In this document: one piece after another, positions 1,855-29,260 of the stretch
Numbering within the stretch: position 1 is the stretch's first letter
Layout of the letters: every line of letters starts with the position of its first letter
Origin: an uncultured Candidatus Melainabacteria bacterium
GTDB lineage: Bacteria > Cyanobacteriota > Vampirovibrionia > Gastranaerophilales > Gastranaerophilaceae
NCBI GenBank assembly: GCA_949915775.1
Contig: CATLEG010000009.1
Coordinates: forward strand, 1 to 37,676
Reading direction: 5' to 3'
DNA: 37,676 bases
Notes under the pieces: generated by a model
What the model was told of the DNA's origin: nothing
What the model saw: only the letters and a program-made list of their open reading frames with translations
Databases searched by the model: none
Made by a program: the position numbers and the translations under genes

Positions 1855-1856
1855 TT

Positions 1857-1945
1857 CGGAGTAATAGGGATTTGAACCCTAGATGCAGATTGCTCCACAT
1901 AACACCTTAGCAGGGTGCCGCCTTCAGCCACTCGGCCATTACTCC
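1857..1945 (-). tRNA. tRNA-Ser (anticodon GCT)
   Basis: Read on the minus strand, GGAGTAA / TTACTCC forms the acceptor stem with discriminator G. The D-arm is GCCGAGTGGCTGAAGGC, the anticodon arm GCACC-CTGCTAA-GGTGT with anticodon GCT (reads AGC/AGU), then a long class II variable arm, and the T-arm TAGGG-TTCAAAT-CCCTA. CCA is not encoded. Its 3' end is duplicated at 1670-1682. Confidence 0.95.
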
Positions 1946-1995
1946 GCATGAGTATATTTATATAATAACATAAATATTTTTTTAGTAAATATCTA

Positions 1996-4157: not shown

Positions 4158-4271
4158 ATGAAAACTAGATCATCAGTAAAACCAATGTGTGACAAATGCA
4201 AAGTCATCAGAAGAAAAGGCAGAGTTGCCGTAATTTGTGAAAACCCTAAACACAAACAAAGACAAGGGTAG
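4158..4271 (+). CDS. rpmJ: 50S ribosomal protein L36 (bL36)
   Basis: 37 residues: [20 protein letters not shown] then [18 protein letters not shown]11, C14, C27 and H32 form the zinc ribbon, so this is the zinc-binding (C+) form. RBS AAAGGAAAAAAC precedes the ATG. The stop is followed at once by the first copy of the operon hairpin repeat. Confidence 0.96.
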
Positions 4272-4360
4272 TTCAGAAGGCAAGATGACCGGATGGCAGG
4301 AAGGCAAGCATTTTAACGAAGATAGCCTGACCTCTTGACCTCTGTTTCTCTGAACTTCTG
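4272..4360 (+). repeat. Ribosomal-operon hairpin repeat, copy 1 (rpmJ-rpsM gap)
   Basis: The 5' arm has iterated GGCAAGA-like units (AGAAGGCAAGATGACCGG, GGAAGGCAAGC). After a loop of about 14 nt the 3' arm reads ATAGCCTGACCTCTTGACCT. Outer arms GTTCAGA (4271-4277) and TCTGAAC (4349-4355) pair perfectly. Same orientation as the copies at 5302, 6055 and 7146. Confidence 0.8.
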
Positions 4361-4370
4361 TTATAAATTA

Positions 4371-4912: not shown

Positions 4913-5299
4913 ATGGCAAGACCAGTAAAAACTAAGAAAAAAGAAAAAAAGAATGTATTGCAGGGTGTTGTACATATTCAATCAACATTTAACAATACAA
5001 TCGTAACTTCTACTGATACACAGGGTAATGCTATTGCTTGGGCAACAGCAGGTGCTTCAGGTTTTAAAGGAGCAAGAAAAGGTACTCCGTTTGCAGCTCA
5101 ATCAGCAGCTGAAATGGTAGCTAAAAAATCAATTGACCAAGGTATGAAAAAAGTTGAAGTTCATATCAAAGGACCTGGTTCAGGTAGAGAAACTGCAATT
5201 CGTGCAATTCAAGCTGCTGGATTGGAAATTACATTGATTAAAGATGTAACTCCTATTCCTCACAACGGATGCAGACCACCTAAAAAACGTAGAGTATAA
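4913..5299 (+). CDS. rpsK: 30S ribosomal protein S11 (uS11)
   Basis: 128 residues, normal length. Recognised by [38 protein letters not shown] and the C-terminal [16 protein letters not shown]. It lies on the 30S platform next to the mRNA exit region. RBS AAAGGAAAAC. The stop is followed immediately by copy 2 of the operon hairpin repeat. Confidence 0.97.
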
Positions 5300-5301
5300 T
5301 T

Positions 5302-5388
5302 GAGGGCAAGAAGTTCGGAAGGCAAGAAGGCATGCTGATTAACGAAAAATAGCCTGACCTCTTGACGTCTGTACCTCCTGACCTCCAA
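5302..5388 (+). repeat. Ribosomal-operon hairpin repeat, copy 2 (rpsK-rpsD gap)
   Basis: 5' arm GGCAAGAAGTTCGGAAGGCA, loop around TGATTAACGAAAAA, 3' arm TAGCCTGACCTCTTGACGTC continuing to ACCTCC. It is followed by a small separate hairpin GGCTTA-tct-TAAGCC (5393-5407) before the rpsD RBS. Confidence 0.8.
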
Positions 5389-6054: not shown

Positions 6055-6140
6055 TGGAAGACAAGAAGTTCGGAAGACAAGAAGGCAAGTAATTTTCTGA
6101 AAATAACCTGACCTCTTGACATCTGTTCTTCCTGTCATCT
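6055..6140 (+). repeat. Ribosomal-operon hairpin repeat, copy 3 (rpsD-rpoA gap)
   Basis: GGAAGACAAGAAGTTCGGAA, then GACAAGAAGGCAAG, loop of about 16 nt, and AACCTGACCTCTTGACATCT. Some units read GACAAG instead of GGCAAG. It begins at the base after the rpsD stop. Confidence 0.8.
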
Positions 6141-6175
6141 AAATAAAATAGTTAACAAAAAACTAGGAGAAAAAC

Positions 6176-7141
6176 ATGGAATTAAAAATTAAAAATGTTA
6201 ATACAACAACAAGTTCTGACGGTTCACAATACGGCAAATTCGTAATTGAACCATTAGAAAAAGGTTTCGGTACTACAATCGGAAACTCTTTAAGACGTGT
6301 GTTACTTTCAAGTCTTGAAGGAACTGCTGTTACTTCTGTAAGAATTGAAGGTATTACTCATGAATACACTGCAATTCCTGGTGTATTGGAAGATGTTATT
6401 GATGTAATGCTTAACCTAAAAGGCTTAGTTGTAAAAACCGATTCCAAAGAACCTCAACATTTGAGAATAGATGTTGATAGACCGGGTGCGGTTCTAGCAA
6501 GTGATATTCAGTTACCAGCTGGTGTTAAAGTTGTTAACCCTGACTGGTTAATTTGTACAGTTGCAGATGGCGGCAGCTTCCATGCTGATATTGTTGTTGA
6601 AACTGGTAAAGGTTATGTCGCACATGATGTACCTAGAGATTCTAAAGGTGTATCAATTGATGTTCTTCCAATCGATGCAACATTTATGCCAATCAAACGT
6701 GTAAGCTATAATGTTGAAAGCACTCGTGTTGGAGATTCTATTGATTTTGATAAATTAACTTTGGAAATATGGTCAAATGGTTCAGTAGATGTAACAAATG
6801 CATTAAGCTATGCTTCAAATCTTTTAATTGAACACTTTATGCAAATTTCAGCAATCACAGGTCAGCCAGTAATAGCACCTTCAATGGTTACAGAAGAAGT
6901 TGATGAAGATGAAGCTGAAAAAACAACTATGACTATAGAAGAACTTGAACTTTCAGTAAGAGCATATAATTGCTTGAAACGTGCAAGCATTAATTCTATG
7001 AGTGAATTATTGAAAAAATCAGAACATGATTTATTAAATATTAAAAATTTCGGTAAAAAATCATCAGATGAAGTTATCGAAAGACTTCACCACTTTGGTT
7101 TAGATTTAGCTCCAAACCCTGAAGTGGAAGAAGAAGTTTAA
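6176..7141 (+). CDS. rpoA: RNA polymerase subunit alpha
   Basis: 321 residues, typical length. Alpha-NTD at about 1-230: FVIEPLEKGFGTTIGNSLRR (assembly and dimerisation), then MPIKRVSYNVESTRVG. An acidic linker follows (EEVDEDEAEKT). Alpha-CTD at about 250-315: LELSVRAYNCLKRASINSMS and NIKNFGKKSSDEVIERL, the two helix-hairpin-helix surfaces that bind UP elements and activators. RBS TAGGAGAAAAAC. Copies 3 and 4 of the hairpin repeat flank the gene. Confidence 0.97.
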   Translation: MELKIKNVNTTTSSDGSQYGKFVIEPLEKGFGTTIGNSLRRVLLSSLEGTAVTSVRIEGITHEYTAIPGVLEDVIDVMLNLKGLVVKTDSKEPQHLRIDVDRPGAVLASDIQLPAGVKVVNPDWLICTVADGGSFHADIVVETGKGYVAHDVPRDSKGVSIDVLPIDATFMPIKRVSYNVESTRVGDSIDFDKLTLEIWSNGSVDVTNALSYASNLLIEHFMQISAITGQPVIAPSMVTEEVDEDEAEKTTMTIEELELSVRAYNCLKRASINSMSELLKKSEHDLLNIKNFGKKSSDEVIERLHHFGLDLAPNPEVEEEV

Positions 7142-7145
7142 TTTT

Positions 7146-7230
7146 GAAGGCAAGAAGTTCGGAGGGCAAGAAGGCAAGCCGTTTACATATAAAATAGCCT
7201 GACCTCTTGACATCCTGACCTCTGGTCCTC
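7146..7230 (+). repeat. Ribosomal-operon hairpin repeat, copy 4 (rpoA-rplQ gap)
   Basis: GAAGGCAAGAAGTTCGGAGG, then GCAAGAAGGCAAGCC, loop GTTTACATATAAAATA, and GCCTGACCTCTTGACATCC. Folding GGAGGGCAAGAAGGCAAGC against GCCTGACCTCTTGACATCC gives 14 of 19 pairs, with A-C and G-A mismatches spread through the stem. Confidence 0.8.
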
Positions 7231-7271
7231 ATAAATAGTAATAATAACAATAAAATATAAAGGACAAAAAA

Positions 7272-10768: not shown

Positions 10769-13429
10769 ATGACAGAAAAACGAGTATGGTTATTCAGAGA
10801 GGGTAATGCCGATATGCGCAATTTACTTGGCGGTAAAGGTGCTAACCTTGCTGAAATGACTAATTTAGGACTACCTGTTCCTCCGGGATTAACAATCACT
10901 ACAGAAACTTGTATGGATTATATTAACCACGGAAATAAAATGCCTGAAGGTTTGATGGATGAAGTTAAAGCAGCATTGAAAGATGTTGAAGCTCAAACAG
11001 GCAAAAAATTCGGTGACAGCCAAAACCCGCTTTTGGTTTCAGTTAGATCAGGTGCAAGACTTTCTATGCCAGGTATGATGGAAACAATTTTGAACCTTGG
11101 TTTGAACGACGAAACTGTTGAAGCAATGATTAAATTAACTAACAATCCAAGATTTTGCTATGATTCATACAGAAGATTTTTGACTATGTTTGGTTCTGTT
11201 GCCTGGGATATGGACAGACAAAAATATTTCGAATCAGAAGTTGAAAAAGTTAAAGAACGTGAAGGCGTTAAAGAAGATACAAAAATTTCAGCAGAAGGCT
11301 GGAAATCTTTAATCCCTGTATACAAAAAAGTTATCAAAGAAGTTACAGGTAAAGAATTCCCACAAGATCCATACGTTCAATTAGAAGAAGCTATCGAAGC
11401 AGTATTCAGATCTTGGAATATTCCTCGTGCAGTTGCTTATAGAAATATGAATAAAATCGACCACAATTTCGGTACTGCTGTTAACGTTCAAACAATGGTA
11501 TTCGGAAACATGGGCGATGATTGTGCTACAGGTGTTTCATTCACTCGTAACCCTGCTACAGGCGAAAACAAATTCTATGGCGAATATTTGACTAACGCTC
11601 AAGGTGAAGACGTTGTTGCAGGTATCAGAACTCCGAAACCTATCGCTGAATTAGAAACTGAAATGCCTGACTTATACAGACAATACGTTGATATTGCGAA
11701 AAAACTTGAATTAGGCTATAAAGATGTTCAAGATATGGAATTTACAATCGAAAAAGGTAAATTGTGGATTTTGCAAACTCGTAACGGTAAAAGAACAGCC
11801 GCAGCTGCTATCAGAATTGCTGTTGAAATGGAAAAAGAAGGTATTATCACAAAAGAAAGAGCAATCCAACTTGTTGATCCTTACAGTGTAAACCAAATTC
11901 TTTTACCTTGCTTTGATTCTAAAGCAATGGCAGATGCTCACAAGATTTGTACCGGTGTAAACGCATCTCCGGGTGCTGCTGTTGGTAAAATCGTATTTGA
12001 TACAGAAGAAGCAGCTCAACGCGGTGAAGCAGGCGAAAAAGTTATCCTTGTTCGTGTAGAAACTTGTCCTGATGATATTCATGGTATGGCTGTTTCTCAA
12101 GGTGTTTTAACATTACGCGGCGGCGCAACTTCTCACGCAGCAGTTGTTGCTAAAGGTATGGGTAAACCTTGCGTTTCAGGCTGTGAAGACTTGAAAATCG
12201 ACCTTGCAAACGAAACATTAACAGGATGCGATGGAAAAGTTTACCACAAAGACGAAATTATCTCACTTGACGGTGGCAAAGGTATCGTTATGGAAGGCGC
12301 TGTTAAACTTGTAGAAGCTCAAATTGATGATAACTGGAACACATTCTTCTCTTGGGTTGACGAAATCAAGAGAATGAAAGTTGAAGCTAATGCTGATACT
12401 CCTAAAGATATCGAAAACGCGTTGAAATTCGGTGCTGAAGGTGTTGGTCTTTGCCGTACAGAACACATGTTCATGGATCCAGACAGACTTCCTTGGGTTC
12501 AAAAAATGATTATTGCGGGAACTCCTGAAGCAAGAAAAGAAGCTTTAGCTAAACTTCTTCCAATGCAGTATTCAGACTTCTATGCAATGTTTAAAGCACT
12601 TGGCGACAAACCTCTTACAGTTCGTTTATTAGATCCGCCGCTTCATGAATTCTTACCTTCTAAAGAAGATTTAATCGCTGAAGTTGCAACTCTTAAAGCT
12701 CAAGGCAAAGATGCTTCTGAAAAAGAAGAAATGCTTCATATCGTTGAAGGCTTATCTGAATCTAACCCGATGATGGGATTACGCGGATGCCGTTTAGGTT
12801 TGACTTATCCTGAAATCAACGAAATGCAAGTAAGAGCAATCTTTGAAGCTTGCTGTGACTTGAAACGTGAAGGCGTTGCGGTTAAACCATGGGTAATGAT
12901 TCCTTTAATTGGTCACGTTAACGAACTTAAAACAGCTAAAGACATTTTAGTTCGTGTAGCAAGAGAAGTCATGGTTGAAAAAGGTACAGAAGTTGAGTAC
13001 AAATTTGGTACAATGATTGAAATTCCTCGTGCAGCTTTAACTGCAGATGAAATCGCTGAATATGCAGAATTCTTCTCATTCGGTACAAATGACTTAACTC
13101 AAATGACATTCGGTTATTCTCGTGATGATGCTGAAGGTAAATTCTTGAACAGATACGTTGAACAAAAAATCTTACCTTCTAATCCGTTCGAAACATTAGA
13201 CCAAAAAGGTGTTGGACAGTTAATTGAAATGTCTATGGAAAAAGGTAAATCAGTAAATCTATCGCTTGTCGGCGGTGTTTGCGGCGAACATGGCGGCGAT
13301 CCTGATTCAGTAAAATTCTGTGATAGAATCGGATTGAATTACGTATCTTGTTCACCGTTCAGATTACCGCAGGCAAAACTTGCAGCAGCTCAAGCGGTTG
13401 TTGAATCAAGAAAATTGGTTCATGCCTAG
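10769..13429 (+). CDS. ppdK: Pyruvate, phosphate dikinase
   Basis: 886 residues from ATG 10769 (AAAAGGAGAAAAA just upstream); 22 extra residues from an earlier ATG at 10703 include the RBS region and are not family-like. It interconverts pyruvate + ATP + Pi and PEP + AMP + PPi. N-terminal ATP-grasp domain (GGKGANLAEM; SVRSGARLSMPGMMET), central phosphohistidine domain with GGATSHAAVVAKG (H456, with the neighbouring regulatory-type Thr454), and C-terminal PEP/pyruvate barrel with GVCGEHGGDP (C838). Complete and intact. It suggests PPi-linked glycolysis or gluconeogenesis. The stop abuts a palindromic element. Confidence 0.97.
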   Translation: MTEKRVWLFREGNADMRNLLGGKGANLAEMTNLGLPVPPGLTITTETCMDYINHGNKMPEGLMDEVKAALKDVEAQTGKKFGDSQNPLLVSVRSGARLSMPGMMETILNLGLNDETVEAMIKLTNNPRFCYDSYRRFLTMFGSVAWDMDRQKYFESEVEKVKEREGVKEDTKISAEGWKSLIPVYKKVIKEVTGKEFPQDPYVQLEEAIEAVFRSWNIPRAVAYRNMNKIDHNFGTAVNVQTMVFGNMGDDCATGVSFTRNPATGENKFYGEYLTNAQGEDVVAGIRTPKPIAELETEMPDLYRQYVDIAKKLELGYKDVQDMEFTIEKGKLWILQTRNGKRTAAAAIRIAVEMEKEGIITKERAIQLVDPYSVNQILLPCFDSKAMADAHKICTGVNASPGAAVGKIVFDTEEAAQRGEAGEKVILVRVETCPDDIHGMAVSQGVLTLRGGATSHAAVVAKGMGKPCVSGCEDLKIDLANETLTGCDGKVYHKDEIISLDGGKGIVMEGAVKLVEAQIDDNWNTFFSWVDEIKRMKVEANADTPKDIENALKFGAEGVGLCRTEHMFMDPDRLPWVQKMIIAGTPEARKEALAKLLPMQYSDFYAMFKALGDKPLTVRLLDPPLHEFLPSKEDLIAEVATLKAQGKDASEKEEMLHIVEGLSESNPMMGLRGCRLGLTYPEINEMQVRAIFEACCDLKREGVAVKPWVMIPLIGHVNELKTAKDILVRVAREVMVEKGTEVEYKFGTMIEIPRAALTADEIAEYAEFFSFGTNDLTQMTFGYSRDDAEGKFLNRYVEQKILPSNPFETLDQKGVGQLIEMSMEKGKSVNLSLVGGVCGEHGGDPDSVKFCDRIGLNYVSCSPFRLPQAKLAAAQAVVESRKLVHA

Positions 13430-13550
13430 GAGCGTAGCGCGAGCAGAGGGCGAGACTTGTTGACAAAATGGCAAAGCCATTGTAGACAACAATCGAGACC
13501 CGTTAAGCGCGAACGAGTAAGAAGCCGCTTCACCCGCCATATTGGGTTTT
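13430..13550 (-). repeat. Palindromic element E5 directly after the ppdK stop
   Basis: Read on the minus strand it has TTCGCGCTTAACGGGTCT, an internal hairpin centred on ATGGCTTTGCCAT with TTGTTGTC / GTCAACAA-like arms, then GCCCTCTGCTCGCGC. This matches the E1 core at 29009-29104. Its outer arm GCGGGTGAAGCGGCT (13523-13537 complement) resembles the tRNA-Gly 3' end sequence found beside E1. No tRNA gene is next to it. The rest of 13430-13780 holds terminators and a 21-bp repeat, no gene. Confidence 0.65.
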
Positions 13551-28766: not shown

Positions 28767-28788
28767 AGCAAGCCTTGAAATGCTTGCT
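28767..28788. terminator. Outermost hairpin of the tRNA-Gly 3' array
   Basis: AGCAAGC-cttgaaat-GCTTGCT, with an A run to its left that gives a U run on the minus strand. It lies just beyond the most distal tRNA-Gly 3' fragment (28808-28825), in the position of an original tRNA terminator. Confidence 0.6.
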
Positions 28789-28807
28789 ATTATTAGTTTT
28801 TAAAATT

Positions 28808-28960
28808 AGCGGGAGACAAGGCTCGTGTCTTGTTCGCTCGCGTTTAACGGCAATTCCGCGTTTTGCTTTTGTGTTTTACAACACAATTGCAAAACTGCTC
28901 CAGCCTCAGCTCGCTCGCGCAACTCGAAAAAACTCGTTCAATCCACTATCTCAGCTAATA
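28808..28960 (+). repeat. Palindromic element E2 within a copy of the tRNA-Gly 3' end
   Basis: AGCGGGAGACAAGGCTCG (28808-28825) copies 29189-29206 with one mismatch. AACTCG at 28921-28926 continues the tRNA T-arm. The 95-nt core between them (28826-28920) contains GCTCGCGTTTAACGGCAATT, a hairpin GTTTTGC...GCAAAAC around TTGTGTT/AACACAA, and CAGCCTCAGCTCGCTCGC. It is nearly the same as the core beside tRNA-Ser. A degenerate inverted tRNA-end copy follows at 28936-28958. ORFs across this region are repeat read-through. Confidence 0.8.
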
Positions 28961-28994
28961 AAAAAGAGCCACTTTCGTGACTCTTCTTTATTAG
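28955..28994. terminator. Middle hairpin of the tRNA-Gly 3' array
   Basis: CTAATAAA...TTTATTAG outer stem with inner AAGAG-c-CAC / GTG-a-CTCTT, and an A/T run on each side. It ends at the start of the second tRNA 3' fragment. Confidence 0.6.
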
Positions 28995-29143
28995 CGGGAG
29001 ACGAGGCTATCTTGACCTGCTCGCGTTAAACGGGTCTACGGTTGTCTGCTTACATGGCTAAAGCCATACGCAGACAAGCCTACGCCCTCTGCTCGCAGGT
29101 CGCTCGAACTCAAATGGAGTTCTCGTCTCTATCTTCCACTCTC
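28993..29143 (+). repeat. Palindromic element E1 within a copy of the tRNA-Gly 3' end
   Basis: AGCGGGAGACGAGGCT (28993-29008) exactly copies 29189-29204. CGAACTC at 29105-29111 continues the tRNA sequence. The intervening core is 96 nt: GCTCGCGTTAAACGGGTCT, hairpin TTGTCTGC...ATGGCTAAAGCCAT...GCAGACAA, then GCCCTCTGCTCGC. This is the same subtype as the element after ppdK. An inverted partial tRNA-end copy (GAGTTCTCGTCTC) follows at 29117-29129. Confidence 0.8.
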
Positions 29144-29148
29144 AAAAT

Positions 29149-29184
29149 AAAAAAGCCTTAAGACAAAAGTCTTAAGGCTTTTTT
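29149..29184 (-). terminator. Terminator of tRNA-Gly
   Basis: Perfect 16-bp palindrome AAAAAAGCCTTAAGAC-aaaa-GTCTTAAGGCTTTTTT, starting 2 nt after the tRNA CCA end on the minus strand. Confidence 0.9.
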
Positions 29185-29185
29185 A

Positions 29186-29260
29186 TGGAGCGGGAGACGA
29201 GGCTCGAACTCGCGACATCCTCCTTGGCAAGGAGGCATTCTACCACTGAATTACCCCCGC
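29186..29260 (-). tRNA. tRNA-Gly (anticodon GCC)
   Basis: Minus strand: acceptor GCGGGGG / CTCCCGC (one G-U pair), discriminator T, encoded CCA (29186-29188). D-arm around TTCAGTGGTAGAA, anticodon arm CCTCC-TTGCCAA-GGAGG (anticodon GCC), T-arm GCGAG-TTCGAGC-CTCGT. Two truncated copies of its 3' end lie downstream at 28993 and 28808. Confidence 0.96.

Follow-up and report, generated by a model that had tools for sequence, protein, structure and literature searches.

What is the array of short repeats behind the tRNA-Gly gene of this bacterium, and how did several copies of the tRNA's own 3' end come to lie in it? The window, i.e. the whole 37,676-nt stretch of DNA analysed here (contig CATLEG010000009.1, from an uncultured Candidatus Melainabacteria bacterium of the Gastranaerophilaceae), contains an intact tRNA-Gly(GCC) gene on the minus strand (29186–29260; ARAGORN and Rfam), followed on the same strand by two repeat units. 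The sequence AGCGGGAGAC[GA]AGGCT occurs three times, starting at 29189 (inside the tRNA gene), 28993 and 28808, with the spacings of 196 and 185 bp given in the original prediction. Unit 1 begins with a terminator-like palindrome (AAAAAAGCCTTAAGAC..GTCTTAAGGCTTTTTT; 29146–29185), followed by an inverted arm (..GAGACGAGAACTC; 29117–29143), recognized from its sequence and from the counts of the motif and of the TC to GA change over units, which is an imperfect reverse complement of the tRNA-Gly 3' arm with GA replacing TC. A copy of the 5' strand of the T-arm (GAGTTCGA; 29104–29111) directly precedes a 96-nt structured core of class b (GAGCAGAGGGCG..GTAGACCCGTTTAACGCGAGCAGGTCAAGATA; 29008–29103; found by a profile match, the sequence itself being a seed of that profile), and the unit is closed by a direct copy of the tRNA-Gly 3' end (GCCTCGTCTCCCGCT; 28993–29007), identical to the gene. 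Unit 2 comprises a terminator-like palindrome (28956–28992), a degenerate inverted arm (CTGAGATAGTGGATTGAACGAG; 28932–28955), a 95-nt structured core of class a (GAGGCTGGAGC..GCGGAATTGCCGTTAAACGCGAGCGAACAAGACA; 28826–28920; supported also by model matches) and the tRNA-Gly 3' end again, copied in direct orientation with one mismatch (CGAGCCTTGTCTCCCGCT; 28808–28825). Each unit has a terminator-like hairpin of its own, and the core of unit 2 is close to that of the tRNA-Ser unit (1681–1775; 89% identity), both as predicted. The predicted core lengths of 96 and 95 nt hold as well, but the common split point in the T-loop does not: the interruption reads TTCGA|GCC in unit 1 and TT|CGAGCC in unit 2, about 3 nt apart. 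The scaffolds of the two units are unrelated, with 50% identity upstream of the two cores.

Units of this kind are usually 180–200 bp long, encode no protein and are built, along the tRNA strand, of a terminator, an imperfect copy of the tRNA 3' arm in inverted orientation, a small hairpin, the 5' strand of the T-arm, a structured core of ~95 nt and a direct copy of the tRNA 3' end, in this order. The T-arm strand copy matches the T-stem of its own tRNA at 3.37 of 5 positions on average, compared to 2.18 of 5 for other tRNAs. The inverted arm is imperfect and modestly tRNA-specific (20 of 72 units fall in the top 5% by alignment score, with 3.6 expected). It keeps the complement of the T-stem and often has GA where the complement of the tRNA reads TC (26 units changed, 3 unchanged, the rest mixed or weak), and the motif GAGAA[CG] is found in the arm of 27 out of 74 units, compared to 1.4 in shuffled sequences. 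Among 49 core sequences, 96.6% of the cells in the predicted helices are paired, with 58 double-sided changes as compared to 14.6 ± 3.1 after shuffling and 1–5 in slid versions, i.e. the predicted core fold is conserved and backed by strong covariation. The outer helix of the core has the form GC-[GA.GA]-XY-[GA.GA]-GC, in which tandem G.A blocks flank the covarying pairs XY (GC/GC, AC/GT, GT/AC, GG/CC); two sequences have Watson-Crick pairs in place of one GA.GA block. No Rfam family was identified for the core at either gathering or relaxed thresholds. Taken on its own terms, the repeat family is real, structured and mobile-looking.

In the draft genome of the host (G000; 2.04 Mb, 98% complete) a strict model-free test revealed that 16 of 36 tRNA and tmRNA genes have their own last 16 nt repeated, at 12 or more of the 16 positions, within 600 nt downstream. 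When at least 14 of 16 matches were demanded over the same distance, 12 of 36 genes remained, as against 10 of 1260 mismatched tRNA/locus pairs. Inspection of the loci of this genome added shorter or decayed tails, and the tmRNA too was found to have a downstream unit. The core occurs 53 times genome-wide, and profile searches over the collected DNA identified 178 distinct core places. The tail of the adjacent tRNA (about 15–19 nt long) was recognized at 11 or more of 14 positions in 74 of 97 tRNA-adjacent cores, compared to 1.5% of comparisons with other tRNAs, and a perfect 14-nt tail is present in 43 of the 97; this genome survey bears out the supposition that the flanking fragments match the adjacent tRNA beyond chance. 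Between 1 and 3 core copies are found per locus, and 17 loci have at least two cores behind one tRNA. Five of these consist of near-identical neighbouring units, i.e. simple tandem duplications; the remaining 12, including the Gly array of the window, have unrelated scaffolds, many with different core classes, which points to independent insertions. The alternative raised with the original prediction, that the three Gly copies arose by simple local tandem duplication with no copies at other tRNAs, is at odds with the unrelated Gly scaffolds and with the presence of units throughout the genome. No significant trend was found for older units to lie farther from the tRNA, and the idea that older units are distal was rejected on these grounds.

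Several loci deserve a separate mention. Behind tRNA-Arg(TCT) of genome G002, a class-a core is nested within a class-c core (GGATA|GCG..CAAGAA|GCGAGTG), and the two are apparently successive insertions. At one tmRNA locus (L205) two units with different cores have scaffolds that are apparently identical, as read by eye in this one record. The tRNA-Gln(CTG) and tRNA-Pro(GGG) loci of the host exhibit the tail of their own tRNA and an inverted arm together with cores unrelated to classes a–c. Among the units behind tRNA-Leu(TAG) of the host (locus L070, 7660–10360, contig C3) there are two HigBA-like toxin-antitoxin pairs and a 215-aa ORF; thus, genes can sit between units like cassettes.

Occupied as well as empty sites were found. 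The tRNA-Ser(GCT) gene of the window is intact (1856–1946, minus strand; ARAGORN) and is followed on the same strand by a unit of terminator, inverted arm, core and direct copy of the tRNA 3' end (AATCCCTATTA; 1670–1680), delimited by alignment of the occupied and empty sites (1670–1855). This unit (~188 nt) is absent from the orthologous locus of a relative, G009, and comparison with the latter indicates that the distal tail (AAATCCCTATTA) is continuous with the native, ancestral downstream DNA. In G009 itself, at tRNA-Leu(CAA) and tRNA-Lys(TTT), the terminator that adjoins the tRNA in the host lies distal to an inserted unit, and behind tRNA-Asp, tRNA-Glu and tRNA-Lys(TTT) the two genomes have different core classes. 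The tRNA-Asp unit is 92% identical between the host and G034, a genome from another family, whereas its flanks are only 52% and 47% identical (47–53% when shuffled) and the tRNA-Asp bodies differ in the anticodon stem; behind the other tRNAs inspected in G034 no such unit was found. These are clear signs of mobility, and the whole Asp unit appears to have been transferred between families. The original prediction of repeated, targeted insertion is in this respect supported, by the tails that match the adjacent tRNA, by the 12 multi-core loci with unrelated scaffolds and by the occupied and empty sites.

The exact class-a core pattern is found in genomes of Gastranaerophilales/Melainabacteria or of gut metagenomes, along with a few records titled as other taxa, such as 'Brachyspira sp. 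RUG745', which may be misnamed. For Clostridia, Bacteroides, Planctomycetota and Verrucomicrobia, matches to the core pattern were dismissed as chance because the 5' half of the core is missing; they fall mostly in one conserved coding gene resembling adenylosuccinate lyase. Viral carriage of the core was considered and dropped, as the exact class-a pattern has no occurrence in IMG/VR.

Cores are found also outside tRNA genes. In the window, a solitary core (13437–13523, plus strand) interrupts the loop (TA|GC) of a small palindrome that closely follows the stop codon of the PPDK gene (TAG, 13427–13429), and the empty site in G009 reads GGAGCGTAG-CCGCTCC. Another core interrupts the stop codon of a gene (TA|A), so that TAA becomes TAG, while most core-free relatives read TAA; target duplication is absent at both sites. 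At 11 of the 15 distinct sites outside tRNAs, an A immediately precedes the core. A general rule of insertion into hairpin loops holds for T-loops and some palindromes, but is unconvincing over these 15 sites, for which the mean duplex energy of the flanks is -8.1 as compared to -6.5 with swapped flanks (SD 3.3).

A number of further arrangements were noted in the course of these comparisons. About 12 intergenic 84-nt core copies in the host lie inside CCCTC..GAGGG palindromes, which are themselves dispersed repeats. One core (contig C30:18849 of the host) lies within an incomplete copy of the tRNA-Pro 5' end (ATCGGGACGTGGCA), ~120 nt upstream of the intact tRNA-Pro gene. In genome G016 a core in the T-loop (C4:10202) could be taken for a tRNA intron, but this tRNA-Ile 3' half is the displaced half at the far end of an island, with the intact tRNA-Ile at the other end; the island (~5.5 kb; locus L333, 830–6430, contig C4) carries a retron-like reverse transcriptase along with a tyrosine integrase that is broken. 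The window also contains four related intergenic repeats (GAAGGCAAGAAGTTCGGAAGGC .. CTGACCTCTTGACCTCTG; 4264–4361, 5290–5388, 6057–6142 and 7134–7233), situated in, or beside, consecutive gaps of the rpsM-rpsK-rpsD-rpoA-rplQ operon.

The closest known counterparts of the Gastranaerophilales units are the tRNA-linked repeats (TLRs) of E. coli, among them the tyrT/tyrV repeats, known as RtT RNA (Rfam RF00391), and the RtT unit that follows proK. TLRs were first described in 1978, and E. coli K-12 has 22 of them at ten loci, defined by a 3' end of which 18–19 bp repeat the upstream tRNA or rRNA exactly (PMC8144298). They had no known function until some of the rrn-linked ones, which are transcribed and processed, were shown to bind Hfq and CsrA (PMC8144298). 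Our analysis of tyrV in E. coli K-12 revealed 178-nt repeats, each ending in the last 19 nt of tRNA-Tyr (19/19 three times), with the inverted arm GGGGAAGGATGAGAAGC and the parts in the same order as in the Gastranaerophilales units. In E. coli and Salmonella, the RtT-annotated unit that follows tRNA-Pro (proK) likewise ends with the tRNA-Pro tail (19/19 in proK) and has the inverted arm GAGGATGAGAACCTCC; in Providencia, units of the same type follow tRNA-Lys, and in Klebsiella tRNA-Arg is followed by partly similar ones. The correspondence extends over the tail, the spacer/terminator, the inverted arm (GGATGAGAA) with its TC to GA change, the hairpin, GGTTCGA, the structured core and its GCGAG motifs, the ..GAGTA end and the second tail. 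The tandem GA motif of RtT, supported there by covariation (PMC7657543, PMC8250186), has its equivalent in the covariation structure described above, and the tails of their own tRNAs, present in one to several units per locus at many tRNA loci, agree with the definition of TLRs. Thus, the shared architecture, including the TC to GA change in the arm, places the elements among the TLRs. The differences are that the core has no sequence match to RF00391 (none in the window at the gathering threshold and none in eight element loci at E ≤ 5, while E. coli controls score 133–138 bits), that nearly half of the tRNAs and the tmRNA are occupied in a Gastranaerophilales genome, with cores also dispersed outside tRNAs, and that occupied and empty sites and transfer across families are visible. 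Judged by their architecture, the elements extend the TLR/RtT class to a second phylum, where they form a new and expanded variant.

Other known systems share some of these features. Palindromic elements of Rickettsia and hairpin elements of organelles are also short, folded and protein-less, and also invade RNA genes, but none is known to carry the 3' end of an adjacent tRNA. Integrative elements targeted to tRNAs, as well as casposons, insert at tRNA ends, restore the gene, and leave direct repeats and arrays, but they are kilobases long and encode an integrase, in contrast to gene-less units of 180–200 bp. REP/RAYT elements are dispersed short palindromic repeats, often at gene ends, but the units described here have tRNA tails and the element-rich genomes have no Y1 transposase.

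Taken together, we consider it probable that the array is a locus of the TLR/RtT class, composed of protein-less insertion units of 180–200 bp that are placed at tRNA or tmRNA 3' ends and mobilized in trans. A unit would occupy the 3' end of the gene and supply a fresh tRNA 3' end, so that the tRNA gene stays intact, while the displaced original 3' end would be left behind the core of the unit. Because the two copies of the tail are direct repeats, the point of insertion within the tRNA end is mostly ambiguous. Arrays would grow as further units insert at that tRNA and, in some cases, by tandem duplication. In the predicted fold, the inverted arm would pair with the T-arm strand and the tRNA tail, holding the core out at the T-loop. 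As for the driving force, no dedicated enzyme was found, nor was a circle or another intermediate observed. We infer that a helper acting in trans, or else homologous recombination of tRNA ends with one another, is responsible; the recombination activity, supplied by the host or by other elements, would act either on the homology of tRNA ends or on the folded strand.

A possible though unlikely elaboration, suggested by analogy, is that the units are structure-based recombination sites, in which a host recombinase of the XerC/XerD type joins a folded strand to the double-stranded tRNA gene, as for the attC sites of integrons. The inverted arm of the folded single strand would rebuild the T-arm/acceptor duplex of the tRNA, with the core out at the T-loop, and joining of such a folded site could serve any tRNA tail. 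If this were true, TLRs would represent a new, protein-less class of mobile elements that spans at least two phyla.

We regard as unlikely the reading that selection acts on the units primarily as small-RNA genes, whose products are processed out of tRNA transcripts like RrA/RrB/RrF of E. coli, and that their spread is incidental. It is in line with the conserved core fold and with the E. coli TLRs behind rrn operons, which are transcribed, processed and bind Hfq and CsrA, but CsrA-binding scores were low for the 19 E. coli TLRs that are linked to tRNAs (PMC8144298). The presence of the element is moreover patchy, as within one genus the core counts range from 53 (G000), 29 (G009) and 28 (G021) to 0 in G001, G007, G015 and G018, and units decay; at tRNA-Leu(CAG) of G009 the tail has remained as a fossil once the tRNA changed.

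Could local replication errors explain the arrays with no mobile element at all? Zig-zag template switching at the terminator hairpin would copy the tail, the inverted tail and the tail again, and tandem duplication together with gene conversion would come later. A double fold-back would indeed yield the observed succession of tail, palindrome, inverted tail, hairpin, T-arm copy and tail, and the five tandemly duplicated loci and the duplication of tail and spacer at the Met and Ser(GGA) loci point the same way; at tRNA-Met the terminator of the unit resembles the native terminator in G009, which suggests local duplication in that case. However, the same core families occur behind many tRNAs, at stop codons and in palindromes, the whole Asp unit is common to two families and the TC to GA change is near-fixed, all of which makes such errors a quite improbable explanation on their own.

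More doubtful still is the view that a classical tyrosine integrase moves the units as miniature integrative elements, with the tail as the att core and excised circles re-integrating at the tRNA. The direct repeats of tRNA ends, the restored tRNA, the arrays and the precise transfer of the Asp unit would follow the attL/attR logic, and the island at tRNA-Ile in G016 is a conventional integrase island. Nevertheless, a single integrase would need to serve many different tRNA tails, and G012, with 17 cores, has one tyrosine recombinase, while G009, with 29, has two, both XerC/XerD-like, and no dedicated integrase beyond this pair; the search for a co-occurring tyrosine recombinase, proposed along with the original prediction, has to this extent come back negative.

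Very improbable is the proposal that the tRNA 3' end primes reverse transcription of an element RNA, with the inverted arm as the primer binding site and the product inserted behind the tRNA, in spite of the complementarity between the arm and the tRNA 3' arm and the conserved, RNA-like fold of the core. RVT_1 is missing from the genome with 53 cores, as well as from G002, G012, G019 and G022 (matches to reverse transcriptases were found in G009 and G021), the arm spans the T-stem and T-loop with a near-fixed TC to GA mismatch, unlike a primer site of the retroviral type, and the core insertions at stop codons bear no primer relation. The Y1 (TnpA_REP) transposase was likewise missing from G000, G002, G009, G012 and G021 but present in G007, a genome without the element, so that neither Y1 nor RVT_1 tracks the element, and priming of the copying by tRNA 3' ends, as suggested originally, loses its footing in the richest genome, which has no detectable reverse transcriptase or RAYT/Y1. 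The DEDD transposase of IS110/IS1111 was not found in the three richest genomes (G000, G009 and G021) either and does not track the element, and RAYT/Y1, reverse transcriptase and IS110 were all discarded as mobilizers, being absent from the richest host. Finally, a Cas1/casposase-like integrase, for which a tail of about 15–19 nt would be the target-site duplication and for which duplications of target sites and tandem integration at reused targets are described in casposons (PMC6563490), is hardly credible, given units without casposon genes and solitary core insertions without duplication.

Insertion units of the TLR/RtT class, mobilized in trans, therefore remain our preferred reading of the tRNA-Gly array. 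The combination of a tail of the own tRNA with an inverted arm bearing the TC to GA change (GATGAGAA) is diagnostic and can be used to find TLRs elsewhere. With many units, empty sites, mixed core classes at one tRNA and transfer across families in a second, unrelated phylum, the origin of TLRs becomes testable, and from the comparisons presented here they look like small mobile units that restore the very tRNA end they invade.
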